From contig JABLUY010000241.1 in NCBI GenBank assembly GCA_013306675.1, positions 1 to 55,943 on the forward strand: a DNA stretch of 55,943 nucleotides, read 5' to 3'. Of this stretch, positions 10,090-53,251 are shown piece by piece. Position numbers and translations under genes: made by a program. Positions within the stretch are counted from its first letter, which is position 1. Each line of letters opens with the position of its first letter. The stretch comes from Thraustochytrium sp. TN22 (lineage: Eukaryota > Sar > Bigyra > Thraustochytrida > Thraustochytriidae). The notes below the pieces were generated by a model. That model was given only the letters and a program-made list of their open reading frames with translations, was not told the origin of the DNA and did no database searches.

Positions 10090-10090
10090 G
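10018..10090. repeat. Hexamer arrays CCGAGT and CCCGAG
   Basis: About six CCGAGT units (10018-10053) are followed by about five CCCGAG units (10059-10090). They lie between the divergent RIC1 and TMEM260-like starts. Confidence 0.85.
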
Positions 10091-21600: not shown

Positions 21601-24600
21601 TGGGGCCTCATTGCCGACATCACCAAGCTCCCGGTCAAGTACTCACCCGAGGTCAACCTCCAGCAGTGTATCGAGGTCGGTCTGCACAAGTTCACAACCG
21701 AGATCGAGGACACCTGCGTCAGCGCAAACAAGGAGTACTCGCTCGAGAAAGGCATGGACAAGATGGAGAAGGAGTGGGAGCCCCTCGAGTTCGTGGTCAA
21801 GCCGTACCGCAACACCGGCACGTACATCGTGGGCGGTGTGGACGAGATCCAAACCCTGCTCGACGACCACATCGTCAAGGCGCAGGCCATGCGCAGCTCT
21901 CGCTACGTGCAGCCCTTTATTGAGCGCATCAGGGACTGGGAACAGACGCTCATCGACCTGCAAAACATCCTCGACAACTGGCTCTCGCTTCAGGGCACTT
22001 GGCTCTACCTGGAGCCCATCTTCGGCTCGCCCGACATTATGAAGCAGATGCCCACCGAGGCCAAGATGTTCCGCGAGGTGGACGACCTCTGGCGCGATGC
22101 CGTCGGCAAGACCGCCGAGCTGCCGGGCGTAATCATCACGGCGCGCCGGCCGGGCCTGCTCGCCGACATGCTGCGCGCCAACGAGCTCATGGAGGAGATC
22201 CAAAAGGGCCTCAACAATTACCTCGAGACCAAGCGCCTCTACTTTCCCCGCTTCTTCTTCCTCTCCAACGACGAGCTGCTCGAGATCCTCTCCGAGACCA
22301 AAGACCCGCTCCGCGTGCAGCCCCACCTCAAGAAGTGTTTCGAGGGTATCAACGAGCTCGTCTTCGATGAAAACCTCGACATCCAGGCCATGCTCAGCCC
22401 GCAGAAGGAGCGCGTCGACTTCGTCTACGACAAGATCTGCCACGACGTCATCAACCCGAACGCCACCGGCGGCAACGTCGAGGTCTGGCTTGTGCAGACC
22501 GAAACGGTCATGCGCCGCAGCGTGGCCTACGCGCTCGACGAGTGCATGAAGGCCTACGCACAGACCACGGAGCGCGTGCAGTGGGTGCAAGAGTGGCAGG
22601 GCCAGATGCTCATTGGCGTCAGTCAGGCCTTTTGGACGCTCGAGGTCGAAAAGGCCATGCGCGATCATGGCAACCAAGGTCTGCATGACCACTTCAAGAT
22701 CCTGCAGAAGCAGCTCGCCGACATCGTCACGCTCGTGCGTGGCGACCTGCCCAAGCTCATGCGCACCGCCATCGGCGCCATGGTCACCCTCGATGTGCAC
22801 TCGCGCGACACGGTTGGCATGCTCGCGGAGTCCGGCATCGCGTCGCCGCTCGACTTTGACTGGATCGCGCAGCTTCGCTACTACTGGTACGACAACAGCC
22901 ACTCCGCCACTACCGGCACGCCGGGCTCGCTCGATGTCAAGATGATCACCGCCTGCTACAAGTACGACTACGAGTACCTCGGCTGCTCTGGTCGCCTGGT
23001 CGTCACCCCGCTCACTGACCGCTGCTACCGCACGCTCATGGGCGCTATCCAGCTGCTCTACGGTGGCGCTCCGGAGGGCCCTGCCGGAACCGGCAAGACG
23101 GAGACCACCAAGGATCTCGGCAAGGCTGTCGCCGTGCAGACCGTCGTCTTCAACTGCTCCGACGGCCTCGACTACCTCGCCATGGGCAAATTCTTCAAGG
23201 GCTTGCTGTCGAGCGGCGCCTGGGCCTGCTTCGACGAGTTCAACCGCATCGAGCTCGAGGTGCTCTCCGTGGTGGCGCAGCAGATCCTTACGATCCAGCG
23301 CGGCAAGATCGACAAGGCCGACGTCATCGAGTTCGAGGGGACGCGCCTGCCGCTCAAGATGGGCGCCAACGTGTACATTACTATGAACCCGGGTTACGCC
23401 GGCCGGTCCGAGCTGCCCGACAACCTCAAGGCGCTCTTCCGCCCGTGCGCCATGATGGTGCCCGACTACGCGCTCATTGGCGAGATTATCCTGTACTCTT
23501 TCGGGTACCTGAACGCACGCGTGCTCGCCAAGAAGATCGTCGCCACCTACCGCCTGTGCAGTGAGCAGCTGAGTTCGCAGAAGCACTACGATTACGGTAT
23601 GCGCGCGGTCATGTCAGTGCTGCGCGCCGCCGGCGCGCAGAAGCGCCTCAAGGAGAATCGCGAGACAGATGAGGCCGTGCTCATGCTGCGCTCCATCATC
23701 GACGTCAACGAGCCCAAATTCCTCTCGCAGGACATGCCGCTCTTCCAGGGTATCGTGGGCGACCTCTTCCCGGGCGTTGTGCTGCCCGAGATCGACCGCT
23801 CGCTCTTCCGCGATGCCTTCCTGCGCAGCTGCACCAAGCTCGGCTTGCAGCCGGACGAGTACTTTTACGGCAAGGTCATCCAGGTCTATGAGATGATGCT
23901 CGTGCGGCACGGTTTCATGGTGGTGGGTCTGCCCTTTGGTGGCAAGACCTCCTCGTGGCGCTGCCTGCAGGACATGCTCACGCTACTCAACGTGGAGAAC
24001 CCGGAAGACGGCCGCTGGCAAAAGGTCGTGGCGGTCGTCATCAATCCCAAGTCCATCTCGATGGGTATGCTCTACGGCCAGTTCGATCCGGTCACGCATG
24101 AGTGGACCGACGGCGTGCTGGCGATCAAGTATCGCGACTGCGCCAACAGCAAGATCGGCGACGAGAAGGACCGCAAGTGGGTCATGTTTGACGGCCCCGT
24201 CGACGCGATTTGGATCGAGAACATGAACACTGTGCTCGACGACAACAAGAAGCTCTGCCTGCAGAGCGGAGAGATGGTGGCGCTTTCCGACACCATGTCG
24301 ATGATGTTCGAGCCGATGGACCTCGAGGTCGCCTCGCCGGCCACCGTCTCGCGCTGCGGTGTCATCTTCTTCGAGCCGCATCGCCTCGGCTGGCGCCCGC
24401 TCCTCGACTCTTGGCTCGATCGCGTCACCACGAACAAGGACATCGCGGAGCTCGTGTCCGCGCTCGAGGAGGATGAAGAGGCCTTCGCGCAGGCTCCGCC
24501 CTTCTTCCTTACCAAGCGCCAGCGCCGCCTGCTCAGCGTGCTCTTTAATTGGCTCATGGACCCGTGCATCATCTTCGTCCGCAAGAAGTGCCGCGAGGAG

Positions 24601-27600
24601 GCGCCCACGGTCAACGCCAATCTCGTGGTCAGCTGCATTCGCCTGCTCGAGAGCTCGCTCGAGAGCCTGCTCTGCAACCCCAACGCGCCAAACGGTACGC
24701 CCAAGATCCGTGAGGCCACCGACGTGGAAGTGGAGACCTACTTTCTCTTCTCGCTCGTCTGGTCGCTCGGTGCCTCCATCGATGCGGCGAGCCGCCCACT
24801 CTTCAGCGAGTACCTGCGCCAGGTGCTCAACGATCCGGACGGCACCTTCATCGAGCAAACCTACCCCAAGATCTGGATCGGCCTTCTCGCCAAGGGCTGG
24901 AAGCTGCCCAGCTTCAACCTGGAGCCCATCCCGCGCGAGGCGCCTCCGGCGCCCGAGGCCGACGATGAGGACGACGGCGAGGAGGGCGGCGAGGACGAGG
25001 GCAAGGCGGAAGGTGGTGGCGACGGCGCCGAGGCCGAGGCCAAGCAGGCCGCGGATCAGGCGGCCGCCGCTGCGGCCGCCGCAGCTGCGGAGGATCAGGA
25101 GGACGAGTACGAGGACGAACCGGCGCCCGGGGCGCCCAAGCAGCACAAGTTCCGCATCCCGATCCCGGAGGATGGTTCCGTGTACGACTACTGCTTCATC
25201 CCGGACGAGGAGCGCTGGAAGACCTGGATTGAGCTTCTGGACAAGTTCAAGATCGCCAACGATGCCGAGTACTCGACCATCGTGGTGCCCACCGAGAACA
25301 CCTCGCAGTTCTCCTACCTTCTCACCTCGCTGTACACGCATGAGAAGCCGACGCTGGTCATCGGCCCCACCGGCACGGGCAAGAGCACGTATGTGATCGA
25401 CTGCCTCATGAACCGGCTGGACCGTGACCGGTACATGAGCATTATGACGGCGTTCTCGGCCAATACGAGCGCGGCGCAGCTGCAGGACATCGTGGACGGC
25501 CGCATGGACCGCCGGCGCAAGGGCGTTTTCGGTCCGGCGCTGGGCAAAAAGTACATGCTCTTCGTCGACGATCTCAACATGCCCACGGTGGAGGAGTACG
25601 GCGCACAGCCGCCCATCGAGCTGCTGCGCCAGTTTGTGGACAACGGCGGCTGGTACGACCTAAAGGAGAAGTCCTTCCGCAACATCATTGATACGCTCCT
25701 GGTGGCGGCCATGGGCCCGCCCGGCGGCGGTCGCAACTTCATCACCCCGCGTATGATGCGGCACTTCAACGTGCTCACCTTCACGGAGTTCTCGGACCAG
25801 ACGCTGACGCGCATCTTCCAGACGCTGACGACGTGGCACTTTGGTAAGCCGGGCTTTGACGAGTCGATCCGCGGCCTGGCCGGCGGTATCGTGGCCGCCA
25901 CGCTCGAGGCCTACACCAAGGCCAAGGTGGAACTGCTGCCGACGCCCGCCAAGTCGCACTACACCTTCAATCTGCGCGACTTCTCACGCGTCGTGCAGGG
26001 CGTGACCATGGTGGTCCCGCAGACCGAGGGGGTGGACCGTCCTTATGTGGTGCGTCTCTGGGTGCACGAGGTGCTGCGCGTCTTCTCAGACCGCCTCATT
26101 GACGACGTGGACCGCAAGTGGTTCTTGGACTATCTCAAGACGCTGCCACCGCGGCACTTCAATGCGGACTTCTCGTCCATCTTTCGCCACCTCAAGGAAT
26201 CGCGGCCGGCGGACAGCACGGCCGGCGACGAGATTGAGCTGGACGACATGCGTCGCCTCTTCTTCGGCGACTTCATGGTGCCCGGCGCGGATCCGCGCCT
26301 GTATGAGGAGATTCAGGACGTTGCCAAGCTGTCCGAGACGCTCGACACCTACCTGGAGGAGTACAATTCGGTGAGCAAGACGCCCATGCAACTGGTGCTC
26401 TTCCTCTTCGCCATCGAACACGTGTCACGCATCAGCCGCGTGCTGGCCATGCCGGGCGGAAACGCGCTGCTGGTGGGCGTAGGCGGCTCCGGCCGGCAGT
26501 CGCTGACGCGACTGGCCGGCTTCGTGGCGGACTTTGACGTGATCCAGATCGAGATCTCGAAGAACTACAACAAGACCGAGTGGCACGAGGACCTCAAGCG
26601 CGTGATCCGCGCCGCGGCGCTGCAGCCGCGCGATGCGGTCTTCCTCTTCAGCGATTCGCAAATCAAGATGCCCAGCTTCGTGGAGGACATCAACAACCTG
26701 CTCAACGCAGGCGAAGTGCCGAACCTGTTCCCGAGTGATGAGAAGGCCGAGTGCTTGGAGAATGTGCGCCCTTTTGCCAAGCAGGTGTACGGCAAGAAGG
26801 CGGCCGACATGAATGCGCTGGAGCTCTGGCAGTTCTTCGTACAGCGCGTGCGCAGGAAGCTGCACGTGGTGCTCGCCTTCTCGCCCATTGGAGGCGAGTT
26901 CCGCGACCGACTGCGCATGTACCCGAGTCTGATCAACTCTTGTGTGATCGACTGGTTCAGTCTGTGGCCCGCGGACGCCCTCGTGGCGGTGGCGGAACGG
27001 TTTTTGGCGGACCTGCCCATCGAGGCGAGCGCGGAGGCGACGCGCGAAGAGATCCTCTCCAGCATTGTGGTCACCTGCCAGAACTTCCACACGAGCATCC
27101 AGGAGCTCTCCGACCACTTCCGCAGCGCGATGCGTCGAATCAACTACGTGACGCCGACCTCGTACCTGGAGCTCATCCTCGCGTACAAGGGCTCGCTCTC
27201 GGCGTGCCGCGAGAAGGTGCTGGGCGCCAAGAGCCGGTACGAGGTGGGTCTGGAGAAGCTCGACTTTGCGGCCAGTTCCGTGGCAGACATGCGCAAGCAG
27301 TTGACCGACCTGCAGCCAGTCCTGGCGCAGAGTCAGGCGGACACGGACGCCCTCATGAAGCAGATCGAGGAGAAGCTGCCCGGCGTGGAGGCCACCAAGG
27401 AGGCTGTCGGCAAGGACGCTGCTGTGGCGCAGGGAGAGGCGGACCGCGTTGGAGCTATCAAGAAGGAGTGTGAGGACGACCTCGCCGTGGCCATGCCGCT
27501 CCTGGAGGAGGCCGTGAACGCTCTGGACACGCTCAAGCCGTCCGACATCAACGAAGTGAAGAACTTCAGCAAGCCGCCCGGAGGTGTCGTCCTCACCATG

Positions 27601-30600
27601 GAGGCGATCTGTGTGATGCTCAACATCAAGGCCGCCAAGGGCAAGGACCCGAACGACCCAACCAAGAAGGTCGACGACTGGTGGACGCCCGGCAAGAAGC
27701 TGCTGGCGGACCCTGGCTTCCTCAAGATGCTCAAGGACTACGACAAGGACAACATCAACCCGAAGTTCATCAAGGTCATCCGTGACAAGTTTATCAACGA
27801 CCCGAACTTCGAGCCGGACGTCGTCAAGAAGGCCTCTGTCGCAGCCCATGGCATGTGCAAGTGGGTGCGCGCCATGGAATCCTACGACAAGGTGGCCAAG
27901 GTGGTGGCGCCCAAGAAGGCGGCGCTGGGCGAGGCCGAGGCGGAGCTGGCCGTCACCATGGGCGAGCTCAAGAAAAAGCAGGACGCGCTCCAGGCGGTCG
28001 AGGACGAGCTTGGCGCGCTGCAGGCGCAGTTCCAGGCAGCGTGCGACAAGAAGAAGGACCTTGAGGACGAGGTCGACCTCTGCGGCAAGAAGCTCGAGCG
28101 CGCCAAGACCCTCATCGATGGCCTGGGCGGCGAGAAGTCGCGCTGGACGCAGAGCGCCAAGGACCTCACCGAGCAGTGTGCGCTGCTCACTGGCGATGTG
28201 CTGGTCAGTGCGGGCATGATCGCCTACCTGGGGCCCTTCACAGCGGCGCTACGCGACCGCCAAGTCCAGGCCTGGACCTCCATGCTGCATGAGCGCAAGA
28301 TCCCGGCCTCGGTCGGCGTCACGCTCAACGCCACGCTGGGTGACCCGGTCGCCACGCGCGCCTGGCACGTGAACGGCCTGCCCACGGACGCCTTCTCTGT
28401 GGACAACGGCATCGTGGTCTTTAACTCGCGCCGCTGGCCGCTGCTCATTGACCCGCAGGGCCAGGCCAACAAGTGGATCCGCAACATGGAGAAGGAGAAC
28501 GGTCTGCATGTCATCAAGCTCAGCGATGGCAACTATCTGCGCACCGTGGAGAACGCCGTGCAGTTCGGCCAGCCCGTGCTGCTGGAGAATGTGGGCGAGA
28601 CGCTGGATGCGGCGCTGGAGCCGCTGCTGCTCAAGCAGACCTTCAAGCAGGGCGGCGTGGAGTGCCTGCGTCTTGGCGACAGCACGGTCGAGTACAGCCC
28701 CGAGTTTCGCTTCTACATCACGACCAAGTTGCCGAACCCGCACTACCTGCCGGAAGTTGCCGTCAAGGTGACGCTCGTCAACTTCATGATCACGCCGGAC
28801 GGTCTGGAGGACCAGCTGCTGGGCACGGTGGTGCTTGAGGAGCGTCCGGACCTGGCCGAGGAGAAGGCGCGCCTCATCGTGGAGGGCGCGGAGAACTCGC
28901 GCAAGCTCAAGGAGCTTGAAGACAACATCCTGCACATTCTCTCATCCTCCTCCGGCAACATTCTGGAGGATGAGAGCGCAATCAATATGCTCAACTCGTC
29001 CAAGGTGCTGTCGAACGAGATTGCGGAGAAGCAGGCGGTCGCGGAGCAGACCGAGAAGACCATCGATGAGGTGCGCCAGGGCTACCGTCCGGTGGCATAC
29101 CACGGCCAGCTGCTGTACTTTTGCATCGCAGACCTTGCCAGCATTGAGCCCGTGTACCAGTACTCGCTGAGCTGGTTCTCGAACCTCTTCGTGAACGGCA
29201 TTCGCAACAGCGAGAAGTCCAACGACCTCGAGGAACGCATGGAGAACCTGCGCAATTTCTTCACCTACTCGCTGTACTGCAACATCTGCCGCTCCCTGCT
29301 CGAGAAGGACAAGCTGCTCTTCGCTTTCTTGCTCACTGTGAAGCTCATGTTCGGCTCGCACGAGCTGGAGGAGTCCGAGTGGTACTTTCTGCTCACCGGC
29401 GGCGTAGCCATGGATAACCCGCACGAGAATCCGGCGCCGGAGTGGCTCGCGGATAAGTCGTGGGGCGAGGTCTGCCGCCTGTCGGCGATGCCCGGCTTTG
29501 AGGAGCTGCGCGAGACCTTCGCGGAGGACGTCGCCGGCTGGAAGGCTCTCTACGACGCCAACAACGCTCACAACGAGCCTTACCCGGCGCGCTGGGAGGG
29601 GGGCCGCCTGACCCCTTTCCAGCGCATGCTGGTGCTACGCTGCATCCGTCCGGACCGCGTGACGCTTGCGGTGCAGGACTTTGTCATCCACAAGATGGGC
29701 GAACGCTTCGTCAAGCCGCCGCCCTTTGACCTGCAGGCCTGCTACAGCGACTCGAGCGCACTGTCGCCGCTCATCTTTATCCTTTCTCCCGGATCCGACC
29801 CGATGGCCTCGCTGCTCAAGTTCGCGGACTCCGTCAAGCAGCAGGTCTCCAGTATCTCGCTGGGCCAGGGCCAGGGTCCGATCGCGGAGCGAATGATTGC
29901 CAAGGCGCAAGAGGAGGGCTCCTGGGTCGTGCTGCAGAACTGCCACCTGGCGGTCAGCTGGATGTCCGCGTTTGAGCGCATCTGCGAGCTCATCACGCTG
30001 GACAACACCAAGGCGGAGTTCCGCATGTGGTGCACGACGTACCCGTCCAAGGACTTTCCCGTTTCGGTGCTGCAGAACGGCGTCAAGATGACCAATGAGC
30101 CGCCCAAGGGCCTCCGCGCCAATCTCGTGGGCTCGTATTCGTCGGACCCGATCGCAGACGCGGACTTCTTCGAGAGCAGCGTGTCGCCAGAGAAGGAGGC
30201 CAACTTTCACATGATGCTCTTTGGCCTCGCCATCTTCCATGCGCTCGTGCAGGAGCGCCGCCTCTTCGGCCCCATGGGATGGAATATTCCATATGAATTC
30301 ACCGACTCGGACCTGAGTATCAGCGCAGCGCAGCTGGCGTTTTTTATTCAGGAGTTCGACGAGGTACCGTACAAGGCGCTCCAGTACACGGCCGCGGAGA
30401 CGAACTACGGAGGACGTGTCACGGACGACAAGGACCGCCGCTGTCTCAATGTGATTTTGGCGCGCTTCTACCAGCCGACGATTCTGCAGGCCGGCACCTC
30501 GCTGTCCCCGAGCGGGCAGTACACGATGCCGGATCCCGCCAAGTGCACGTCCCGCGACGACTTCGTGGAGCACATTGAAAAGTTCCCATTGGTGGCGGAG

Positions 30601-31569
30601 CCAGAAATTTTTGGTCTGCACACGAACGCGACCATCACCAAGGACCGCAAGGAGACCAACTCGCTCTTTTCGTCCATTCTGCTCACGCAGGCCGACACGA
30701 ACTCGTCGGGCGCCAAGTCGCCCGACGAAGTCATGGACGAGGTGGCGCAGGATATCTTGCAGCGCCTGCCAGAGGCCTTCAACCTGGAGCTCGCCCAGGT
30801 ACGCTTTCCCGTGCGCTGGGACGAGTCGCTCAACACCGTGCTGCAGCAGGAGCTCGTGCGCTACAACCGACTCACGAGCGTGATTCGGCCGTCGCTGGTG
30901 AACCTGCGCAAGGCGGTGCGCGGCGAGATGGTCATGAGCGCCGAGCTCGAGCGCGTGGGTAATTCCATGTTTTACGGCCTCGTGCCCGGCATGTGGGCCG
31001 GCAAGTCGTACCCGTCGCTCAAGCCGCTCGGCGGCTACGTGAACGACCTGCTGCGCCGGCTCGACATGCTCGGATCTTGGCTTGAGGGCGAGGCGCCGGC
31101 CGTGTTTTGGATCAGCGGCTTCTACTTCACGCAGGCCTTCCTCACGGGTTGCATGCAGAACTACGCGCGCAAGAACCAGATCGCCATTGACTCGGTCAAC
31201 TTTGACTTTGAAGTCATGCCCAAGTCCACCTACCAGCGCGGCCCGGCGTCCACCGAGGGTGCCTACGTGGACGGCCTCTTCTTCGACGGCGCCCGCTGGG
31301 ACCGGGCCGAGGAGGCGCTCGCGGATCCGTACCCGAAGCAGCTCTTCTCCGTCGCGCCGGTCGTCTGGCTCAAGCCCATGCCGCAGGACGACATTAAGCC
31401 GCCCCCACACTACAACTGCCCAATTTACAAGACGTCCGAGCGTCGCGGTGTCCTGGCCACCACGGGCCACTCCTCCAACTTCCTCATGTACATGCGCATT
31501 CCCAGCGGCAAGGACCAGAGCTTTTGGATCGAGCGCGGCGTCGCGCTCCTCACCCAGCTCGATGACTAA
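18643..31569 (+). CDS. DNAH7: Axonemal dynein heavy chain, single-headed inner-arm type (DNAH3/7/12-like)
   Basis: This 4308-residue motor drives ciliary beating by ATP-dependent sliding of doublet microtubules. An N-terminal Pro/Ser-rich leader of about 120 residues precedes the tail and linker. P-loops: AAA1 G-P-A-G-T-G-K-T (about 1479) with Walker B C-F-D-E-F (about 1528); AAA2 G-L-P-F-G-G-K-T (about 1762); AAA3 G-P-T-G-T-G-K-S (about 2241) with F-V-D-D-L-N-M-P (about 2306); AAA4 G-V-G-G-S-G-R-Q-S (about 2612). The stalk runs from about 2856 to 3170 with the microtubule-binding tip at about 2960-3085. The C-terminus with Y-K-T-S-E-R-R-G and G-H-S-S-N-F fits axonemal rather than cytoplasmic chains. 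Between AAA2 and AAA3 sits an acidic/Ala-rich insert (about 2100-2168). The start is the first ATG. The gene has no intron across 12.9 kb. Choice among DNAH3, 7 and 12 is not settled. Confidence 0.95.
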   Translation: MEGEAARPRSPRRLAPLGTGGGASGAGEQGEEHKAGGRSKEETVYSSPSDKIGRNYTPQASHLTVRTLDKDTTGNVRSPTRPRLRSPINVDVSKKPSFPPPRSPPGGFVVSPTSPQSPARRGKRFNAASWSPVSVDAPPPAIQTVDALAAPALAHDHEAKEHHAGEGEGEGEDMVPLEEQGGPTSGRVRDEVRRNAERFQAAVDGYACLDVCGRQCEIARHRESWEHRVLDKLPPAPADSLLPVEARQAFVSQMISEMRNNYFQCIKSATIEYELLRPAQRVLLGIDPAKLRDPQRDWTSDQYTSHAWCILRRSGVSRTAVQTARSTLEGTLALDAALRELQHLWVTDVGPRSTFVEMGTREYRLHLPFEPLTFAKHSEGVAEAVRLHLKDKWLQRASEILSASLEGLMQGERTAALAEAAAPGTGGPSHAGAGGGGPAAASATPGAGSSDALVPASGQASAAATPSRSVPRITAAGQRILDTACVLMSRQVRSAIDASLDDVERFFLTFSDEALATTGTPPAPLFAIDLDVDEDGKPVFVPSAEELTQTIFQVLDAVVASASKLPRVDGESFLAPCEMLQNNERLVAIKDVVRTLLHARYKDCAALTAAFSPFGGLYDGSEDAAVQYKIKNRKFGMESRASLKELNAELMRFRTVQDTISAAVEDDENFAMFRVDCTPVKVAYRSKAEKYVETVQMQVAKDNSQIMTDLCTEYSEMMQKLVKEPQDSEELHGLILYAKECETRVKEMEKRIVTEVSPRINFAINYDYHLSEEDTILVQNVYAFPAKVWEAQRRSEKLQESQKQARIQVLERRRELFADELSRAEEDCLKLQGMGDLSPVGVERALKRVNDLRRVIGDAENEMDGIREQEELLAQEVTVPMWMTRITALKKSLDPYGILWDTAKSFADQTRTWLSEALVSLDAEEIDRDADNVRRAMAKLVKEFERQEVEEPLKAATVLLNESKTYLDEYIPLMLLLCNPGLRERHWGLIADITKLPVKYSPEVNLQQCIEVGLHKFTTEIEDTCVSANKEYSLEKGMDKMEKEWEPLEFVVKPYRNTGTYIVGGVDEIQTLLDDHIVKAQAMRSSRYVQPFIERIRDWEQTLIDLQNILDNWLSLQGTWLYLEPIFGSPDIMKQMPTEAKMFREVDDLWRDAVGKTAELPGVIITARRPGLLADMLRANELMEEIQKGLNNYLETKRLYFPRFFFLSNDELLEILSETKDPLRVQPHLKKCFEGINELVFDENLDIQAMLSPQKERVDFVYDKICHDVINPNATGGNVEVWLVQTETVMRRSVAYALDECMKAYAQTTERVQWVQEWQGQMLIGVSQAFWTLEVEKAMRDHGNQGLHDHFKILQKQLADIVTLVRGDLPKLMRTAIGAMVTLDVHSRDTVGMLAESGIASPLDFDWIAQLRYYWYDNSHSATTGTPGSLDVKMITACYKYDYEYLGCSGRLVVTPLTDRCYRTLMGAIQLLYGGAPEGPAGTGKTETTKDLGKAVAVQTVVFNCSDGLDYLAMGKFFKGLLSSGAWACFDEFNRIELEVLSVVAQQILTIQRGKIDKADVIEFEGTRLPLKMGANVYITMNPGYAGRSELPDNLKALFRPCAMMVPDYALIGEIILYSFGYLNARVLAKKIVATYRLCSEQLSSQKHYDYGMRAVMSVLRAAGAQKRLKENRETDEAVLMLRSIIDVNEPKFLSQDMPLFQGIVGDLFPGVVLPEIDRSLFRDAFLRSCTKLGLQPDEYFYGKVIQVYEMMLVRHGFMVVGLPFGGKTSSWRCLQDMLTLLNVENPEDGRWQKVVAVVINPKSISMGMLYGQFDPVTHEWTDGVLAIKYRDCANSKIGDEKDRKWVMFDGPVDAIWIENMNTVLDDNKKLCLQSGEMVALSDTMSMMFEPMDLEVASPATVSRCGVIFFEPHRLGWRPLLDSWLDRVTTNKDIAELVSALEEDEEAFAQAPPFFLTKRQRRLLSVLFNWLMDPCIIFVRKKCREEAPTVNANLVVSCIRLLESSLESLLCNPNAPNGTPKIREATDVEVETYFLFSLVWSLGASIDAASRPLFSEYLRQVLNDPDGTFIEQTYPKIWIGLLAKGWKLPSFNLEPIPREAPPAPEADDEDDGEEGGEDEGKAEGGGDGAEAEAKQAADQAAAAAAAAAAEDQEDEYEDEPAPGAPKQHKFRIPIPEDGSVYDYCFIPDEERWKTWIELLDKFKIANDAEYSTIVVPTENTSQFSYLLTSLYTHEKPTLVIGPTGTGKSTYVIDCLMNRLDRDRYMSIMTAFSANTSAAQLQDIVDGRMDRRRKGVFGPALGKKYMLFVDDLNMPTVEEYGAQPPIELLRQFVDNGGWYDLKEKSFRNIIDTLLVAAMGPPGGGRNFITPRMMRHFNVLTFTEFSDQTLTRIFQTLTTWHFGKPGFDESIRGLAGGIVAATLEAYTKAKVELLPTPAKSHYTFNLRDFSRVVQGVTMVVPQTEGVDRPYVVRLWVHEVLRVFSDRLIDDVDRKWFLDYLKTLPPRHFNADFSSIFRHLKESRPADSTAGDEIELDDMRRLFFGDFMVPGADPRLYEEIQDVAKLSETLDTYLEEYNSVSKTPMQLVLFLFAIEHVSRISRVLAMPGGNALLVGVGGSGRQSLTRLAGFVADFDVIQIEISKNYNKTEWHEDLKRVIRAAALQPRDAVFLFSDSQIKMPSFVEDINNLLNAGEVPNLFPSDEKAECLENVRPFAKQVYGKKAADMNALELWQFFVQRVRRKLHVVLAFSPIGGEFRDRLRMYPSLINSCVIDWFSLWPADALVAVAERFLADLPIEASAEATREEILSSIVVTCQNFHTSIQELSDHFRSAMRRINYVTPTSYLELILAYKGSLSACREKVLGAKSRYEVGLEKLDFAASSVADMRKQLTDLQPVLAQSQADTDALMKQIEEKLPGVEATKEAVGKDAAVAQGEADRVGAIKKECEDDLAVAMPLLEEAVNALDTLKPSDINEVKNFSKPPGGVVLTMEAICVMLNIKAAKGKDPNDPTKKVDDWWTPGKKLLADPGFLKMLKDYDKDNINPKFIKVIRDKFINDPNFEPDVVKKASVAAHGMCKWVRAMESYDKVAKVVAPKKAALGEAEAELAVTMGELKKKQDALQAVEDELGALQAQFQAACDKKKDLEDEVDLCGKKLERAKTLIDGLGGEKSRWTQSAKDLTEQCALLTGDVLVSAGMIAYLGPFTAALRDRQVQAWTSMLHERKIPASVGVTLNATLGDPVATRAWHVNGLPTDAFSVDNGIVVFNSRRWPLLIDPQGQANKWIRNMEKENGLHVIKLSDGNYLRTVENAVQFGQPVLLENVGETLDAALEPLLLKQTFKQGGVECLRLGDSTVEYSPEFRFYITTKLPNPHYLPEVAVKVTLVNFMITPDGLEDQLLGTVVLEERPDLAEEKARLIVEGAENSRKLKELEDNILHILSSSSGNILEDESAINMLNSSKVLSNEIAEKQAVAEQTEKTIDEVRQGYRPVAYHGQLLYFCIADLASIEPVYQYSLSWFSNLFVNGIRNSEKSNDLEERMENLRNFFTYSLYCNICRSLLEKDKLLFAFLLTVKLMFGSHELEESEWYFLLTGGVAMDNPHENPAPEWLADKSWGEVCRLSAMPGFEELRETFAEDVAGWKALYDANNAHNEPYPARWEGGRLTPFQRMLVLRCIRPDRVTLAVQDFVIHKMGERFVKPPPFDLQACYSDSSALSPLIFILSPGSDPMASLLKFADSVKQQVSSISLGQGQGPIAERMIAKAQEEGSWVVLQNCHLAVSWMSAFERICELITLDNTKAEFRMWCTTYPSKDFPVSVLQNGVKMTNEPPKGLRANLVGSYSSDPIADADFFESSVSPEKEANFHMMLFGLAIFHALVQERRLFGPMGWNIPYEFTDSDLSISAAQLAFFIQEFDEVPYKALQYTAAETNYGGRVTDDKDRRCLNVILARFYQPTILQAGTSLSPSGQYTMPDPAKCTSRDDFVEHIEKFPLVAEPEIFGLHTNATITKDRKETNSLFSSILLTQADTNSSGAKSPDEVMDEVAQDILQRLPEAFNLELAQVRFPVRWDESLNTVLQQELVRYNRLTSVIRPSLVNLRKAVRGEMVMSAELERVGNSMFYGLVPGMWAGKSYPSLKPLGGYVNDLLRRLDMLGSWLEGEAPAVFWISGFYFTQAFLTGCMQNYARKNQIAIDSVNFDFEVMPKSTYQRGPASTEGAYVDGLFFDGARWDRAEEALADPYPKQLFSVAPVVWLKPMPQDDIKPPPHYNCPIYKTSERRGVLATTGHSSNFLMYMRIPSGKDQSFWIERGVALLTQLDD
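24945..25140 (+). repeat. Low-complexity acidic/Ala-rich insert coding DNA in dynein
   Basis: GAC/GAG/GGC and then GCC/GCG runs encode an Asp/Glu/Gly tract, a ten-Ala stretch and a second acidic tract. The frame is kept throughout, so it is a linker, not a frameshift. Confidence 0.8.
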
Positions 31570-45825: not shown

Positions 45826-46974
45826 CCTTCCGATCGGGTCGCGTTACTCCGAGCCCTCGTGCCGCTGCCGCTGCCGCTGCTCGCTCGCCCGCTCGCTCGC
45901 TCGCTCGCGCGGCCCCTCCCTCCCGGCCGCCGTCCGGCGCGCGCAGGCCGAGGCGGGCAGGCAGCTCGACGGGCAAGCTCGCGCGCGTTGCCGGCTTCCG
46001 CGCCCGAACGTTGGGCGCCGCCGCTCGCCGCCCTCGCCGCCGCCGCCCCCGCCGCCGCCAGCAGCCGGCCCGCCGCCCGAGCGCGCCCGCGCCGCGCCGC
46101 GCCCGCGGCCCCGCGGCCGCCCGCGCCGCCGACTCCGCCGCCCGCGCCCGCGCCCGCGCGCCCGCTCGGCTCTGCCGCTCCACGTCAGCCGCCGGCGGAT
46201 ACGGGCGAGCGGGCGGGCGCGCCGAGGCACGATAGGCCTCCGCTTGGGCCGCTTCGCCGCTTGCGAGCGCGTCAACTCCGGGGTCAACGACGGCGCTGCA
46301 CGCAGTGCACTGTGGCACGGCGCGTCGCGATCACTGACCATGACCAGCCTGGGAACGAGGCGGCCCGGAGCGAGAACCGGCGCCAGGGGCCGTCGCTCGC
46401 AGACTGGCCTGGCTTGGACGCGCACGAAACGCCTCTAGCTAAGGTGGGCTGAGGAGGAGGAGGCGTAAGGTCGACGTCTTGATGGAGTTGTGAGCAGTTC
46501 GTGAGACGGAGGTTGGGCGTAAGTTAAGTGAGCTTGGGTCAGCACAAGCAAAAGGTTCTAAAATCATTTAGCCTGCGACAAGTAGGTATTGAAATGCCTG
46601 CCAGCCTGAGAGGGATGAGGTGGTGAGCGCAGGACCTTTTTTCTTACGTCGCTCGCCACAAATGGAGTAGCTATCTCGCACCAGCCTCCCTGCTACTCAA
46701 AAGAAGAGCTCTCTTTGACGCGTATAACATCGCTTGCAGTGGCCCAGGCCCGTCCGCTGCCGTGGTCGCGCGTGGTCGCGTGCAGAGTGGTACCGCATCA
46801 GAATCGGCACGTGCGCGATCCGCGCCGGTTCCGTGCCCGATCCGTGCTGGGACGGATCTTACACCGTACCAGTACCGTGCGACGGCGGCGTGCGTGCATA
46901 CGTCACGGTGCTTGCATGCAAATCCTCATCACAAAGTCGTCGCCTGCCTCGGCTTGTATATAGATCGCCCCATC
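45826..46974. promoter_or_regulatory. Divergent promoter region, COPB1 / orphan gene
   Basis: The 600 bases next to COPB1 are very GC-rich with a GCTC/CTCG tetramer run (about 45880-45910). The next 500 bases (about 46440-46950) are AT-richer. A TATATA lies close before the orphan-gene ATG. Open frames extend in from COPB1's antisense strand and are rejected as shadows. Confidence 0.55.
46957..46962 (+). promoter_or_regulatory. TATATA element close to orphan-gene ATG
   Basis: TATATA lies 12 bases before the ATG at 46975, too close for a normal TATA-to-start spacing unless the leader is nearly absent or the element has another role. The DCD fusion gene shows the same arrangement. Confidence 0.35.
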
Positions 46975-48594
46975 ATGGAGGCGGCGGACAGCGACGATAC
47001 CTGGACGGTGGTGAGCAAGGCGTCTTCGTCGTCTCCGAGTCGCAGGACGGCGGCGGCGGACGCCTCGAGCGAGGCCGGCCTGAGCTGGGTGGTCTGTTCA
47101 TGCCCGCCTTGTGCTCCCTCGGTGTGCTCCTCGGAGACGCCCTCGGCGGCTTGTCACCGCAGCTTTGCGGACCCAGTCAGCCGCAGCTTTGCAGACCCAA
47201 TCAGCCGCAGCTTGGCGGACCCAATCAGCGCGGCTCAGCTGCAGCGCGAGCAGGCCCGGCTCTGCACCGTCGCTGAGGAGGAGGCCAATGGCGAGGAGGT
47301 GGCCTGTGGCGAACGCATGGTGGCGCCTCGCTTCCAGCGCGAACGCTTCTCCGTTTTCGCCGGCAAAAGCACGGTGCGCAAGTGCCAGAGCAGCTGCTGC
47401 TACAAGGCGGAGTCCCTCGAGGTGCGCCGGCCGGAGCCAAATGTGGTCACAGATATGGACCTGCACCTCTTCAACGGCATGCCCCCTCCAAAGGAGGTCC
47501 TGCGCACCTCACTGAACCACCACCAGCGCTGGCACCTGGAGAAGATTCTCGCGGACCTGGCCGTGGCGCCACCCAAGCGCAAGGAGAACCTGTGGTCCGG
47601 CGAGGTGGAGATCGCCTACCAGCTCCCGGCCTGCGGTGAGCAGGTTTGTTCGGCCGTCACCGCTGCGCTCAAGACGAAGCATGAAGCGGAGGTCTTGGCC
47701 CGCCAGATCTACGTGGTCAAGAGCCGCGGCGACCCCTTTCACCTGCGCCTCCTGGGCGAGTACCCTCGCGAGAACCCGGACCCGGAGAACCTGGAGGACC
47801 TGAGCTTTTCCATGCGTACCAACATCTCCGCGAAGAAGGACGACAGGATCGGCTTGCAGCTCGCGCGGTGCCGCGAGGGCGACTGCCGCAGCGGTTTCAA
47901 CCCAGGCAAGGACGCCCCGCACGTTTACCTGGAGACGCACTTCGGCCGCCATGTGCACGTCTGTGCGGTCAGCACGGCCGCGCGCTTCATGCGCTGGGAG
48001 CACTACCCCGACAAAGAATGGCTCGACGCGTACCGCCGCCGCAAGCGTTGGACGCAGCGCTTTCACCGCGTCGTGCACCGCGAGGAGAGCCACCGAGAGG
48101 ATCTCTTCTTTCCCTCGTATCGGCTCTTCTACCGGCCCGACTTTGGCAAGCCCTGGATCCCGCTCGGCGTTTTCAAGGGCCCTCGCAACAACTTCGAGGA
48201 GCGTCTGCAGTCCCTGGGCGACGCGCCCGGCATCAACACACCGGACGGCGTCCGCTGCATTGCACTCCGCTGGCAGGTTGTGACCGACGGTCTCGAGCCC
48301 TCCAGCATGCACTTGCGCGGCATGCGCGTTGCGGCCTTTACGGCGGCCAGCTCGACCAAGGCCCATGGCGAAGCCTCGCAGAACAAACGCAACGTGGAGG
48401 TCAACGCCATGAACGGCGCCAAGCATGTCACCTATACACTCACCAAGCCGCAGCATACGTCCGTTCGCAAGCGCAAGACGGGTCGCTCCACGTCCACCTG
48501 GTGGCGTTATGGCGACATTGCCAACCCGCGCAAGGAGCGCGCCAAGGACCTGCGCGAGATGCTCAATGAGTACTATTACAATGAAGAGGACTGA
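46975..48594 (+). CDS. Orphan protein with possible discoidin-like beta-sandwich
   Basis: I do not recognise a named family for this 539-residue protein. It starts with an acidic W-T-V-V-S segment. Residues 62-85 hold three copies of an 8-residue repeat (R-S-F-A-D-P-x-S), encoded by a 24-bp DNA repeat. The middle has conserved-looking blocks: L-N-H-H-Q-R-W-H-L-E-K-I, then G-L-Q-L-A-R, then Y-L-E-T-H-F-G-R-H. The part at about 325-450 (R-F-M-R-W-E; F-F-P-S-Y-R-L-F-Y-R; W-I-P-L-G-V-F-K-G; A-L-R-W-Q-V) has strand spacing like F5/8C-type galactose-binding folds, but this is only a structural impression. The C-terminus is basic (K-R-K-T-G-R) and ends acidic. It has no signal peptide, so it is probably intracellular. 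GC-rich codon use supports it as real. Confidence 0.7.
   Translation: MEAADSDDTWTVVSKASSSSPSRRTAAADASSEAGLSWVVCSCPPCAPSVCSSETPSAACHRSFADPVSRSFADPISRSLADPISAAQLQREQARLCTVAEEEANGEEVACGERMVAPRFQRERFSVFAGKSTVRKCQSSCCYKAESLEVRRPEPNVVTDMDLHLFNGMPPPKEVLRTSLNHHQRWHLEKILADLAVAPPKRKENLWSGEVEIAYQLPACGEQVCSAVTAALKTKHEAEVLARQIYVVKSRGDPFHLRLLGEYPRENPDPENLEDLSFSMRTNISAKKDDRIGLQLARCREGDCRSGFNPGKDAPHVYLETHFGRHVHVCAVSTAARFMRWEHYPDKEWLDAYRRRKRWTQRFHRVVHREESHREDLFFPSYRLFYRPDFGKPWIPLGVFKGPRNNFEERLQSLGDAPGINTPDGVRCIALRWQVVTDGLEPSSMHLRGMRVAAFTAASSTKAHGEASQNKRNVEVNAMNGAKHVTYTLTKPQHTSVRKRKTGRSTSTWWRYGDIANPRKERAKDLREMLNEYYYNEED
47158..47229 (+). repeat. Three 24-bp tandem repeats
   Basis: Three in-frame units (47158-47181, 47182-47205, 47206-47229) differ by only a few bases and encode R-S-F/L-A-D-P-V/I-S. 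Near identity at the DNA level indicates recent duplication. Confidence 0.9.
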
Positions 48595-48802: not shown

Positions 48803-51800
48803 TCAGGCGCTGTAAGGTGGTGGGTACATCATGTTTCGGACGGTATCGTTGTAGTCCTGCATGAGGTCCTTGTAGAACTTGATGCGCACCTCCCTGTCCA
48901 TGATGCGGTGGCCCTGCATCCTGAGCATGGCGCGGCGAGCATCGACGTTGTTGGCGTAGGTGATGTAGAGGGAGCCGCGCGCGGCCGACTGGTTGGTGGA
49001 GATGACCTTGCCGAGGGCGCGAAATTTCTCCTCGAGGTCGGCGAAGTCCTCTGGCGATGCCTCGTACGGGATGTTGCGAGCTACGATGGTGATGCCCTCG
49101 TCCGGGATGAGCGAATTGGCCGGGCTGCGCGGCACGTCTGGGAGCGGCCACATCATATAGTGCGGCGGCGGCATGGGCGGCGTGAACGTTTGCTGCGTCT
49201 GTGTTCCCTTGGCGAGCGGCGGCATGGTCTGCGTGCCATTGCTTCGCGTGGCGTGCGGGCGCTGCGGCTGTTGCTGAGACGAGGAGGCCGCGGCAGCGGC
49301 GGCGGCGGCGGTGGCGGCGTCGGCAGTCGGTGTGGCTGGCCCTCCGGCGGCCGGCGCGAAGCCGGCAGGGAAGCCGTACGCACCGTGGGAGAAGCCCATG
49401 CTGGGATACGCGAACTGCATAGGCACGCCAGGCATGCCATGGTACGGAGACGAGGGCGGGCCATGCGCGGGCGCGGGCACCCGCGGCGGGACGCCGTCAC
49501 CTTGCGGCATCTGGCTCGCGACCTTGGGCGGCGCAGCCTCCTTGGCGTTCTCGGTGGTCATCTCGGCCTGGGTGCCACCGCCGGCGGCCGAATCGGCGCA
49601 GGGCTGCGGCTGCGGTGTGGTGCACGCCGCGGCCGAGAGCGGCGTGGCCGGCGAGGGCGGCGCTTGGCCCCCCGGCCCACTGAGCGCTCCGTAGCCACCG
49701 GCGAGCGGGCCATAGCCGAGGGGAAGGTGCATGGGGAGAGGAACCATGGGATGGGGCGCGCCAGAGAAGGAGACCGGGATGAAGGGTACGTAGCCGGAGA
49801 TGCCGGGGTAGGGCGGCGTGGGGCCGAAGCCGTGCGGAGCGGGCATGCCCATGCTCGGCAGCGGCGCCGACTGGGGCGAGGCCTGGCTGACGCTGGGCGG
49901 GAGATCCATGGCGAGCATGTCGCTGAGCTTGCTGGGACTATGCATGAGCATGTCGCGGAGCTGGCCAAACTTCTGCTGCACGAGGTACATGTTAAAGGAG
50001 CCGGACCCGAGGCAGTGGCTGCGGCGCACCGGGTCGCGGATGCAGAGCGGCGACGGCTGCTGCGGAAGGCCATCCGTGTCGCGGCGGCGGCGCTGGAGGC
50101 GAACAGAGCCGCGCTGCAAGATGGAGAGCTCGAGCTGCTCGAGGTCTAGCCCGCCGCGCGCGGGTCGCGAGTAGAGTTGCAAGAAGCCCATGAGCAGTAC
50201 GCCAACGTTGACCTTGCCCTCGCAGCCGCCGCGGACAAAGCCGCGCAGCCACTCTCGGCTCTCGCGCGTCGCGCTCTCCACGACCTGGGCGGCCTTTTTC
50301 AGAATCTCCTCCTCATCCATGGCGGGCGACTCGACGCTGCTGTTGCCCTTGCTCCGTGCGTCATCCTCGTCGGCGTCCCGGTCGTGGTCGTGGTCGGCCT
50401 CGCCGTCGATCTCCGCCTCGTCTGCCTCCTCGCCTTCGTTGACGCGATCGCCGCGCAGGTCAGAGCGCGCGCGGCGCTCGCCGCCGGCGCCGATCCTGGT
50501 GCCGCTGTTGTTGTTGTCGTTGTTGTTTCTGGCGCTGCTGGACTCCGCATCTTCATCGGCGTCTTGGCCGTGGTCCGAGGCGGACGAGTCCAACTTGTAC
50601 AGGGGCGGCAGGTTGTCGAACTCGACAAAGGGGAAACGAGGCGTGCGCATCTGTGGTGGCACGCCCAGAGGACTGGCCGCCATGGCTGGCGCCGGCGACG
50701 GGGGCTGCTGCGGCTGCGGCTGCTGGAGGCTCGCCACCGGGCTCGGGAGCGAGCAAGGCGCCGGCGATGCGGGTTGCGCCGTGGCGGCCGAGGTGGGCGG
50801 CGTGGGCGTGAGCGGGATGCGAGGTGGCTGGAACATGCGGCCGAGGTGCGAGACCATCTCGCCAGAGATGACAAAGCCGACACGGACCAGAAAGAAGACC
50901 ACGAGCGCGGTCAGCGAATAGGAGCCGAGGCCACCCTTGTACACATCATGCAGGTCGTTCTCGCGCAGTAGGCGCTTGAGGATGAGCACAAGCGGGCGCA
51001 AGACGCCGCAGAGGTCGTCCGTAAGCTGCAGCACGAAGTCGCGCGCCTGCAGGCCGTAGTGGTCGGCGGTGCGGAAAGAGATGTCCACGGGGATCTCCGG
51101 ACCGGAAGCCGTGCCGTCCGCCTTGAGGTTGACGGCTTGCATCTTGATTACCGGCATGGTGGAGCTCTTGATGAGCTTGATGGACTTGCACCAAGGCTGC
51201 GCCTTGAGCGCCGAGTGCATGGCGCACATGTACGTGAGGAGCTGGCCGCGGTCCGACCCGAGGTCCACGCCAGCGTCCATGAGCGGCGACGGCATGCCGG
51301 CAAAGTAGTGCCCGAACGGCGGGAGCGTGGACGGCATGGGCGCCGGCACCGGCACTGGCGCCGGCGTCTGCACCTGGGCGTGCGTCTGGGGCTCGGCAGA
51401 CCGCGTCGTTTCAGTGCCCTGAGAGCGCGTGCTGAGCGGCAGGCGCGGCACGCCGGCCGAGGGCGCCGCCAGGGGCGGTAGGCCCTGCGAGGTGAGCTGG
51501 CCGCCGCTCTGCCGCGAGCCCGGCACCGGCGTGGACGAGGGCCGCGCCGGCGCCTCGGCCTCGCAGTCCCGCTCCATCGACCGGCCCGCCTGTCTCCTGC
51601 CCGGCTGGCCCGCGACGGCGCCGCCGTCCTCGGGCGCGGACGCGGGCGCGGAGCCCGTCGACTCGCGGCGCGCCTGCTCCTGCGACGCGGCAAGGGGCGC
51701 GGGCCCGGGTCCGGGCCCGGCCTCGGCCGCGTCCGGGACCCCAGCCCGCGCGCGCGAGGCCCAGGTCGAAGCGGCCTGCTGCGCGGGCACGGGGGACTCG

Positions 51801-53251
51801 GCGCGGACGCTCGTCGGGGTCTCGGACGTGGGCGGCGAGACGTCCTCGTTGGTGGCGGCGTCGCTGTCGCCAGCGCCAGCCTCGGCCGGCGGGGTGACGA
51901 TGGACATGGACATGGAGCGCATGATCGGGCGCGTGCCGTCAAAGGAGCCGCGCTGCAAAAAGGGGCCGCCCGCGGACGAGGTGCGCGCACGGTTGTAGCC
52001 CTGCATGAGCGCATGGCCGTGGTGCAGCGTGATGAGGAGGTCGAGGTCGCTCTGGCCGGGCAGCCAGAGGCCGGTGGCGAAGGAGCCGTAGATTTGCACC
52101 ACGGCGCTCGCGTAAAGGTTGTGCACGACCTCCTCGACGCGACGCCAAATGACCGTGGCATCGTTGCCCGAGTAGCCGGACATGTCGTATTCGAGGCTGT
52201 CGGGCGCGTTGCGCGGGCGCACGTTCATGGCCTTGACCACGTTCTCCAGAAAGGTCTCGATGCTCTCGTTGACGGGTTTCAAATAGGACACGTTCGGCTC
52301 CTCCTCGACGACGATGGAGAGCGGCTTGCGCAGGCGCGCCTGCGTGCCGGACTTCTCCACCGCGGAGTCGTCCGGGTCGCCAGTGGCGGCGGTCGCCGCG
52401 GCGCCCTCGCCGCTGCGCTGCGCGCACGGGTCCGCGGACGGGCCCGTGCCGGTTGTGACGGACGAGAGTCCCGACATGTAGCCGGAGTCCTCGTTGGTGT
52501 TCATGGAGGACACGCTGCTGTCCTCGCTGCACAGGCTTTCATTGGAGCTCGCGTCCAGCACCGTCATGGTGACGCCCGGCTGCGGCTGCGACAGCGGCTG
52601 CCCAGCCGCAGCCGCAGCCGCAGCCGCAGCGGCCGCGGCGCTCGCGCTGCCGCGCTTGCTCTTCTTCGACCCGCGCGAGCGCTTGCCGGCGCTCCCGGTG
52701 CTGCTCCTGCTGCTACTGCTGCTGCTGCTGCCGCCGCCAGGGGCGGCTTCGGGCACCGTGGTCGGGCAGGCATCCAGAGCGTCCGCCACGGTCTGGCTGA
52801 GCAGGTCGCAGCGCGTCTCGTCCCAGAGGCGGGTGTCGGGCAGCACGTTGCTTAGCACCGCGCGAAAGTGCTTGTACAAAATGGGCTCGCACCGCCTGAC
52901 GCGGCGGATGCGCACCTGCGCAAGCAGCTCCGTGTCCTTGGTGTCGCCTGCTGCGCTGGGCATGCGCCGCATCGGCTCGATCTCGCGGCGGCCCTCCGAG
53001 GCCGCCTCGAAGCCGATGTGCAGGTACTCGCGCTGCACGTCGAGAATAAAGACCTTGGTGCCCGGCTGCACCTTGCGCACCACCTCCAGGTTTTCTTCCA
53101 CCGTGCCGAGCAGCATGCGGTCCTCCACGGCGCGCACCGTCGCGGAGTTGCAACGAAAGAGGACGCCGGCGGGCGCCGGCGCCGGCGCCGGAGTCGGCCC
53201 CGGCAACGCCGACGCCGACGCCGACGGCGCTGTTGTTTGCGTGCCGCTCAT
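48803..53251 (-). CDS. DCD domain - TENT4/Trf4-type poly(A) polymerase - RRM fusion
   Basis: The product has 1482 residues. A DCD domain lies at about 29-158: G-V-L-F-R-C-N-S, P-G-T-K-V-F-I-L-D, L-H-I-G-F-E-A-A-S-E-G, A-Q-V-R-I. DCD is a plant stress and cell-death module. The nucleotidyltransferase core has Y-G-S-F-A-T-G-L-W-L-P-G-Q-S-D-L-D (about 388-405, two catalytic Asp) and the third Asp in V-D-I-S-F (about 722), split by a roughly 300-residue disordered insert. The central domain G-G-L-G-S-Y-S-L (about 771), a second insert, and the PAP-associated part (G-V-L-L-M-G-F-L-Q-L-Y, about 1015; G-S-F-N-M-Y, about 1083) follow as in Trf4/TENT4 enzymes. A Pro-rich linker leads to an RRM (about 1380-1455: I-T-I-V-A-R-N-I-P, then G-S-L-Y-I-T-Y). 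It probably adds A-tails to RNAs and selects them by its own RRM. Confidence 0.85.
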   Translation of the reverse strand: MSGTQTTAPSASASALPGPTPAPAPAPAGVLFRCNSATVRAVEDRMLLGTVEENLEVVRKVQPGTKVFILDVQREYLHIGFEAASEGRREIEPMRRMPSAAGDTKDTELLAQVRIRRVRRCEPILYKHFRAVLSNVLPDTRLWDETRCDLLSQTVADALDACPTTVPEAAPGGGSSSSSSSRSSTGSAGKRSRGSKKSKRGSASAAAAAAAAAAAAGQPLSQPQPGVTMTVLDASSNESLCSEDSSVSSMNTNEDSGYMSGLSSVTTGTGPSADPCAQRSGEGAAATAATGDPDDSAVEKSGTQARLRKPLSIVVEEEPNVSYLKPVNESIETFLENVVKAMNVRPRNAPDSLEYDMSGYSGNDATVIWRRVEEVVHNLYASAVVQIYGSFATGLWLPGQSDLDLLITLHHGHALMQGYNRARTSSAGGPFLQRGSFDGTRPIMRSMSMSIVTPPAEAGAGDSDAATNEDVSPPTSETPTSVRAESPVPAQQAASTWASRARAGVPDAAEAGPGPGPAPLAASQEQARRESTGSAPASAPEDGGAVAGQPGRRQAGRSMERDCEAEAPARPSSTPVPGSRQSGGQLTSQGLPPLAAPSAGVPRLPLSTRSQGTETTRSAEPQTHAQVQTPAPVPVPAPMPSTLPPFGHYFAGMPSPLMDAGVDLGSDRGQLLTYMCAMHSALKAQPWCKSIKLIKSSTMPVIKMQAVNLKADGTASGPEIPVDISFRTADHYGLQARDFVLQLTDDLCGVLRPLVLILKRLLRENDLHDVYKGGLGSYSLTALVVFFLVRVGFVISGEMVSHLGRMFQPPRIPLTPTPPTSAATAQPASPAPCSLPSPVASLQQPQPQQPPSPAPAMAASPLGVPPQMRTPRFPFVEFDNLPPLYKLDSSASDHGQDADEDAESSSARNNNDNNNSGTRIGAGGERRARSDLRGDRVNEGEEADEAEIDGEADHDHDRDADEDDARSKGNSSVESPAMDEEEILKKAAQVVESATRESREWLRGFVRGGCEGKVNVGVLLMGFLQLYSRPARGGLDLEQLELSILQRGSVRLQRRRRDTDGLPQQPSPLCIRDPVRRSHCLGSGSFNMYLVQQKFGQLRDMLMHSPSKLSDMLAMDLPPSVSQASPQSAPLPSMGMPAPHGFGPTPPYPGISGYVPFIPVSFSGAPHPMVPLPMHLPLGYGPLAGGYGALSGPGGQAPPSPATPLSAAACTTPQPQPCADSAAGGGTQAEMTTENAKEAAPPKVASQMPQGDGVPPRVPAPAHGPPSSPYHGMPGVPMQFAYPSMGFSHGAYGFPAGFAPAAGGPATPTADAATAAAAAAAASSSQQQPQRPHATRSNGTQTMPPLAKGTQTQQTFTPPMPPPHYMMWPLPDVPRSPANSLIPDEGITIVARNIPYEASPEDFADLEEKFRALGKVISTNQSAARGSLYITYANNVDARRAMLRMQGHRIMDREVRIKFYKDLMQDYNDTVRNMMYPPPYSA

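Follow-up and report, generated by a model that had tools for sequence, protein, structure and literature searches.

The window, by which we mean the whole 55,943-nucleotide stretch of Thraustochytrium sp. TN22 DNA that was analysed, carries on its minus strand, at positions 48803–53251, one uninterrupted open reading frame of 1482 codons from ATG to stop. A Pfam scan of its 1482-aa product, P0001, matched six families, five of them above their curated cut-offs (the sixth, RRM_Nup35, fell below its own), in the order DCD (residues 28–135), nucleotidyltransferase palm (367–415), PAP_assoc (1015–1079) and RRM (1392–1456). This agrees with the initial annotation, which had placed a DCD domain, a Trf4/TENT4 core and a C-terminal RRM in a single frame. 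Sequence comparison and structural modelling together show that the frame joins a DCD with the predicted fold of EVE and YTH domains, a complete TENT4-like core and an RRM. The NCBIfam scan gave one match, at 19.2 bits, far under its cut-off of 281.3. A 610-aa frame on the plus strand (46762–48594), with no Pfam match at 0.001, is convergent with this gene, 208 bases separating their ends. Elsewhere in the window are genes for an FHA-domain protein (112–3693, plus strand), a family-10 glycosyltransferase, or fucosyltransferase (4367–6100, plus strand), a RIC1-like protein (6384–10469, minus strand) and a dynein heavy chain of 4312 aa, encoded by an intron-free open frame (18631–31569, plus strand).

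Several properties of the P0001 frame provide evidence that it is one exon of one gene. Under a mononucleotide model, the chance of a random frame of 1482 codons staying open at 70% G+C is about 4e-13. Every one of the 25 blocks into which the frame was divided, also those in the linker and the inserts, has a third-position G+C (GC3) between 0.78 and 0.97; the flanking sequence, in five blocks, gave 0.58, 0.63, 0.67, 0.70 and 0.83. The consensus splice donors GTRAG and GTRRGT occur nowhere in the frame, a scan that unusual donors would escape. Within the same window, the dynein heavy chain and the coatomer beta subunit (952 aa) are also encoded by single open frames, showing that genes here can be intron-free. 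The DCD (or the RRM) might still be an artefact of the gene model, part of the transcript of a neighbour, or of one spliced in another way, and in frame by chance. The linker between DCD and core is indeed long and of low complexity (residues 136–366, 52154–52846, minus strand), but its GC3 of 0.87–0.95 and its lack of a consensus donor match the rest of the frame, and with the single-frame dynein and coatomer genes nearby we regard such an artefact as very improbable.

The catalytic core is split into blocks by two long insertions (all coordinates on the minus strand). The first part of the palm, with its GS and SDLDLL motifs, spans residues 345–412 (52016–52219) and was recognised above cut-off in the full protein by MTPAP-like_central (PF22600, E 2e-7, residues 367–415) and NTP_transf_2 (PF01909, E 7e-6, residues 372–412); the PF22600 stretch scored alone in the genome search reached 26 bits, just under the cut-off of 27. 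A proline-rich insert follows (about residues 413–664, 51260–52015), after which the second part of the palm, aligned to yeast Trf4 (PDB 3nyb), carries the third catalytic Asp and a GGLGSYSL helix (residues 665–800, 50852–51259). A second low-complexity insert (about residues 801–1008, 50228–50851) precedes PAP_assoc (PF03828, E 4.7e-6, above cut-off, residues 1015–1079, 50015–50209). By motif and alignment, D402, D404 and D723 fall on the three catalytic Asp positions, the last of which is Ala in the 3nyb chain as given, so that the TENT4/Trf4 hallmarks, namely GS motif, DxD, third Asp and PAP_assoc, are all present. Between block anchors, the palm insert measures 257 residues in P0001 versus 0–33 in seven other TENT frames of the genome, and the second insert 225 versus 15–165 at the same place. 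Because these other frames also bear second-site inserts, and given the high GC3 and missing consensus donors, we judged it unlikely that the inserts are read-through introns. One stretch of the palm insert, FGHYFAGM..., aligned by chance as a counterpart of the GS/DxD region, and the alignment concerned (A3) was left out of folding and counts.

Among PDB sequences, the P0001 core is closest to yeast Trf4 (3nyb, 1.1e-12), followed at a distance by GLD2 (0.0059) and Cid1 (0.057), with no MTPAP-named chain among the 15 sequences listed. With Trf4 the best solved relative and the Asp triad and PAP_assoc in place, the TENT4 assignment of the initial annotation is upheld, and P0001 is best explained as a TENT4/Trf4-type RNA nucleotidyltransferase and is probably a poly(A) polymerase; its specificity for A and a link to Mtr4 are assumptions. 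Core identities are 33.7% of 258 sites to the paralogue C403, 32.1% of 221 to Trf4 and 30.3% of 271 to the paralogue C206. An unrooted tree of nine sequences, for which the three catalytic blocks were aligned separately, pairs the paralogue C205 with Trf4 (0.883), joins this pair to C309 and C110 (0.756) and places P0001 beside C206, a topology that neither proves nor refutes a TENT4 origin.

A profile search of the genome found eight TENT palm loci, P0001 included, and the seven other frames (C205, C309, C110, C385, C117, C403 and C206), scanned at E up to 0.001, show neither a DCD nor an RRM. P0001 and the first three of these were compared with PDB sequences. C205 matched 3nyb at 5e-47, its next match being 5.4e-20, and by this criterion is the Trf4 of this genome, which makes P0001, as judged from its sequence, an additional TENT4-like enzyme beside the standard one. 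The presence of a separate Trf4 would leave P0001 free to specialise. C309 and C110 instead matched TUT4, URT1 and TUT7 best, 3nyb coming 39th (0.00011) and 40th (0.0089), respectively, of the 40 matches listed. These paralogues bear on whether P0001 could be a uridylyltransferase or a cytoplasmic GLD2-like enzyme instead of a poly(A) polymerase. Few residues separate TENT families, identity to Trf4 is only 32% and the tree does not pair the two, yet the Trf4 match has an E-value nine to ten orders of magnitude better than those of GLD2 and Cid1, and the TUT-like paralogues, unlike P0001, rank Trf4 last or second-last; we consider such an activity improbable. Two of the paralogues have partners of their own: C110 (frame L019) is a TUT7-like TENT that has a CCCH finger at its C terminus as well as CCHC zinc knuckles, and C206 (frame L023), a 2017-aa TENT frame, has an unusual partner in a zf-TRAF match (29.1 bits, cut-off 27).

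The DCD occupies residues 28–135 of P0001 (52847–53170, minus strand). The initial annotation had named the lack of a significant match here as grounds for giving up its reading, and had proposed a structure prediction of the region. The match to Dev_Cell_Death (PF10539) is clearly significant (57.9 bits, E 1.1e-15, cut-off 27.8; 63.4 bits in the genome search and 64 bits for the domain alone). An AlphaFold2 model was obtained from an alignment, A2, of this DCD, a second DCD from a CPSF30-like protein of the same genome and 23 archaeal DCDs, with a mean pLDDT of 80 and a pTM of 0.73. The model shows the beta-alpha-beta-alpha arrangement, followed by strands, of an EVE-like fold. Compared with the PDB, it gave 251 matches at E up to 10, three of them at E of 0.001 or below: 2hd9, 1wmm and 2p5d (9.3e-6 to 2.8e-5), representing PH1033 twice and MJECL36. 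PH1033 is an EVE protein; for MJECL36, the near-identical archaeal L144 matches Pfam EVE at 1.7e-28. Entries 4–50 of the best 50 of the 251 matches are YTH domains (Mmi1, YTHDC1, YTHDF2, MRB1) or EVE-type proteins, THYN1 with 5-methylcytosine DNA among them; 2gbs, 2eve, 2ar1 and THYN1 are EVE proteins. Since archaeal DCDs in the alignment guided the model, the fold match partly reflects them.

Profile comparisons agree in part with the structural match. The A2 profile searched against PDB sequences at E up to 1 found only MJECL36 (2p5d, 0.0029) and PH1033 (1wmm, 0.018), and hhalign of the DCD alignment against an EVE protein gave an E of 8.1e-5 at a probability of only 60.9%. The P0001 DCD alone matched the DCD family and not EVE at E up to 1, and hhalign of the DCD alignment against the YTH domain of the genome's own CPSF30-like protein found no match (probability 0.2%, E 0.31). 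Sequence and model, taken together, show that the P0001 DCD has the predicted EVE/YTH fold, that of modified-base readers. In agreement with this, Bell, Wolf and Koonin (2020) grouped DCD with EVE through profile comparison and predicted modified-base binding (PMC7641849). The description of DCD in the initial annotation as a plant module of unknown biochemical role is thus outdated, the same paper grouping it with EVE readers and reporting it within a heterokont CPSF30-YTH-DCD-KH protein (PMC7641849).

The archaeal DCDs came from a wider search. PF10539 exceeded its cut-off in none of the first 11 archaeal genomes (the one weak match there being an EVE protein), in one of 28 genomes of one archaeal phylum, and, in the phylum to which a Thermoproteota genome belongs, in 26 of 398 genomes (28 with an E of 0.001 or below as the threshold). 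We extracted 29 loci, of which 23 entered A2; those left out were L144 (an EVE protein), L145 (which also matches EVE), L149 (a near copy of L148), L152 (with an internal stop), and L167 and L170 (similar to ones kept). The weak matches L171–L173 were not extracted, and three more match rows had no locus. L145 matches DCD at 2.5e-12 and EVE at 1.1e-4 (22.6 bits, just below the cut-off of 23); L146 and L151 match DCD and not EVE. In nine of the 29 loci (L148, L149, L151, L153–L157 and L174) the sequence runs on into a methyltransferase-like region with a motif of the DPMxGSGTT type. To the eye, the region after the DCD in L145 and L146 resembles a PD-(D/E)XK nuclease.

A family search of the Thraustochytrium genome found two DCD loci, P0001 and C92 (frame L024, 1032 aa); because only top candidates are scored in this search, it could overlook a DCD that has diverged strongly. 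C92 carries CCCH fingers, a YTH domain (1.5e-17), a DCD and a KH domain and was not matched by NCBIfam. Its DCD is weak, at 24.7 bits in the whole protein (below cut-off) and 29.4 in the genome search. By domain content, C92 is the known CPSF30-YTH-DCD-KH form, which Bell et al. reported from heterokonts (PMC7641849). Both detected DCD loci of the genome therefore sit in RNA 3'-end proteins. The two DCDs are 20% identical in A2 and 30% in a two-sequence alignment (A1), and this low identity, with the much lower score of C92, gives no sign of recent copying; we rejected the idea that the P0001 domain is a copy of the other. A protein search of the genome with the P0001 DCD, at E up to 1, returned nothing but the query itself; a search of the genome for EVE domains was negative, and no relatives of this DCD appeared in collections of viral contigs, GTDB contigs, plasmids and phages, which are not meant for eukaryotes. 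The genome also contains two MT-A70 loci and two DSHCT loci of Mtr4/Ski2-type helicases.

We also looked at the positions of the pocket aromatics in EVE and YTH readers. In the hhalign alignment, Leu48 of the P0001 'LLG' (53108–53110, minus strand) falls on the Trp of the EVE 'IWG', and in A2 the same site is Phe or Tyr in 19 of 23 archaeal DCDs. A second Trp is found in 19 of the 23 as well; P0001 has no Trp in residues 28–135, the sole one of residues 1–160 being W143, outside the domain match, and a local insert makes its alignment near the second Trp uncertain. The DCD of C92 likewise has Leu at the first aromatic site and lacks Trp at the second. On sequence alignment, then, the aromatic base-pocket residues of EVE/YTH readers are absent from the P0001 DCD. 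From the order of structural elements and the YTH sequence, the Leu48 site would correspond to W377 of YTHDC1. The m6A cage of YTH domains contains two strictly conserved Trp, W377 and W428 in YTHDC1, but Mmi1, a partner of the nuclear exosome, keeps both without reading m6A and binds RNA through another surface of its YTH domain (PMC6356822). With this precedent, the missing aromatics leave room both for RNA binding without a mark and for protein docking.

The second candidate reader, the RRM, lies at residues 1386–1462 (48866–49096, minus strand), behind a region rich in Pro, Ala, Gln and Met that was read from the translation and GC3 (residues 1120–1370, 49142–49894, minus strand). The RRM_1 match (PF00076, residues 1392–1456) is weak, with an E of 9.7e-5 and 22.6 bits, 1.9 over the cut-off of 20.7; the fold model agrees with it, and the C-terminal RRM of the initial annotation stands. 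Of five single-sequence models, one was confident (mean pLDDT 77.8; the others 38–47). It has the beta-alpha-beta-beta-alpha-beta fold of an RRM and gave 1862 PDB matches, 427 at E of 0.001 or below, the best 50 being headed by the RRMs of SF3b14/p14, U1A, HuR and Rbfox. Several of these 50 are entries for ribozymes, riboswitches or large complexes and have no RRM in the title; the matching chains there are presumably U1A or other RRM subunits. At the usual aromatic sites, RNP2 (IVARNI) has V and RNP1 (RGSLYITY) has S and then Y, so that one of three is kept.

Taken together, these observations make it rather likely that P0001 is a TENT4/Trf4-type polymerase that chooses its RNA through its own DCD and RRM. 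In such a mechanism, the two domains would bind the body of the RNA close to the 3' end and keep it in place at the active site, where a short oligo(A) tail would be added. DCD and RRM would do the job that in TRAMP falls to the zinc-knuckle partners (Air/ZCCHC) of TENT4, and the tailed RNA would be handed to Mtr4/exosome decay or, less likely, be stabilised. The DCD itself might engage RNA at a modified base or, given that it lacks the aromatics that normally line the pocket, through a different surface in the manner of the fission yeast Mmi1 YTH domain. The Mtr4/Ski2-type helicase and MT-A70 genes of the genome are consistent with this explanation. That P0001 carries its own RNA reader, as the initial annotation put it, is plausible on sequence and model, qualified by the absent pocket aromatics and by the single RNP aromatic retained. 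Its suggested link between DCD and RNA tailing gains two supports, the EVE/YTH fold and the second DCD in a CPSF30-like YTH protein. Its premise that TENT4 enzymes borrow their RNA binding is not absolute, as a title cited in PMC6232586 gives PAPD5/TENT4B an unusual RNA-binding motif.

The fate of the pocket weighs on two other views of the DCD, both of which we hold to be rather unlikely. It may be a true modified-base reader, for m5C or m6A for example, so that the enzyme, as a reader-writer fusion, tails marked RNAs only; we count this as a special case of the explanation above, and the probabilities of the two overlap. The EVE/YTH fold, the methyltransferase-like continuations of archaeal DCD loci and the MT-A70 genes speak for it, as does the proposal of Bell et al. 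(PMC7641849), and Leu at the EVE Trp site and the lack of a counterpart to the second archaeal Trp, W143 lying outside the domain match, speak against it. Alternatively, the DCD may have kept its PUA-like fold, lost the nucleotide pocket and become a protein-interaction module that docks the polymerase on another 3'-end factor, such as the cleavage/polyadenylation complex with the CPSF30-like protein. The loss of both candidate aromatics in both DCDs, the place of both proteins in RNA 3'-end machinery and the long low-complexity arms of P0001, which suit assembly, would fit such docking, but the structural neighbours of the DCD are nucleic-acid readers and the domain is mildly basic (19 K+R, 15 D+E).

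Our preferred reading, a tailing enzyme with its own RNA reader, can be set against known systems. P0001 shares with Trf4/TENT4 the catalytic core, Asp triad, PAP_assoc and the GGLGSYSL and GSFN-type motifs, and adds a DCD, an RRM and two long inserts in the same chain, whereas in human TRAMP the partners of TENT4B are ZCCHC7 and MTR4 (PMC6232586). Like P0001, TENT1/TUT1, the U6 TUTase, has an RRM in its chain and a proline-rich palm insertion, and since RNA is bound by its own ZF, RRM and KA-1, it can probably do without a cofactor (PMC6232586); an RRM within a TENT is thus not new. Unlike P0001, TENT1 uridylates, its RRM is N-terminal, and a zinc finger and KA-1 take the place of the DCD. 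By analogy, P0001 looks like a TENT4 that has adopted the TENT1 solution with other parts, a DCD in front, an RRM behind and a proline-rich palm insert. The heterokont CPSF30-YTH-DCD-KH protein is likewise an RNA 3'-end protein with a DCD built in but lacks a catalytic domain, and the DCD of this genome's version is more diverged. EVE and YTH domains have the fold in common with the P0001 DCD, which does not keep their aromatic pocket sites. In the CAPAM-DCD and eTudor-DCD fusions of a haptophyte and choanoflagellates (Bell et al. 2020, PMC7641849), DCD is likewise joined to RNA-acting or RNP domains, with a methyltransferase or Tudor partner and no polymerase.

We found no description of a DCD-TENT fusion in the open literature; domain databases may record it unremarked. 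In the text of Bell et al. 'polymerase' occurs four times, in no case for a DCD fusion, and 'nucleotidyltransferase' does not occur, the DCD classes being drawn in its figures and supplements (PMC7641849). In the literature on the DCD domain and nucleotidyltransferases, DCD appeared only in a cited reference title, and 'polyadenylation' in soybean NRP work referred to a vector. P0001 is informative in that its parts are known, their fusion is new and its role can be tested, though the altered pocket tempers this.

For years, plant stress and cell death have been the setting in which DCD proteins were studied, and Bell et al. (2020, PMC7641849) predicted that the domain reads bases. That one DCD of this genome lies within a polymerase and the other detected one within a CPSF30-like protein directs attention to RNA 3' ends. 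It is possible, if on balance doubtful, that outside plants DCD serves generally to target RNA 3' ends and that P0001 is a fusion of reader and polymerase, whose PUA-like reader would take over from the TRAMP adaptors and let an RNA mark or motif trigger tailing directly. The question is testable with one purified protein: whether the DCD binds RNA, whether it needs a mark and whether it steers tailing. If true, 3'-end targeting would provide a domain best known from plant cell death with a molecular function that can be tested, and DCD domains may help choose the RNAs that get tails.
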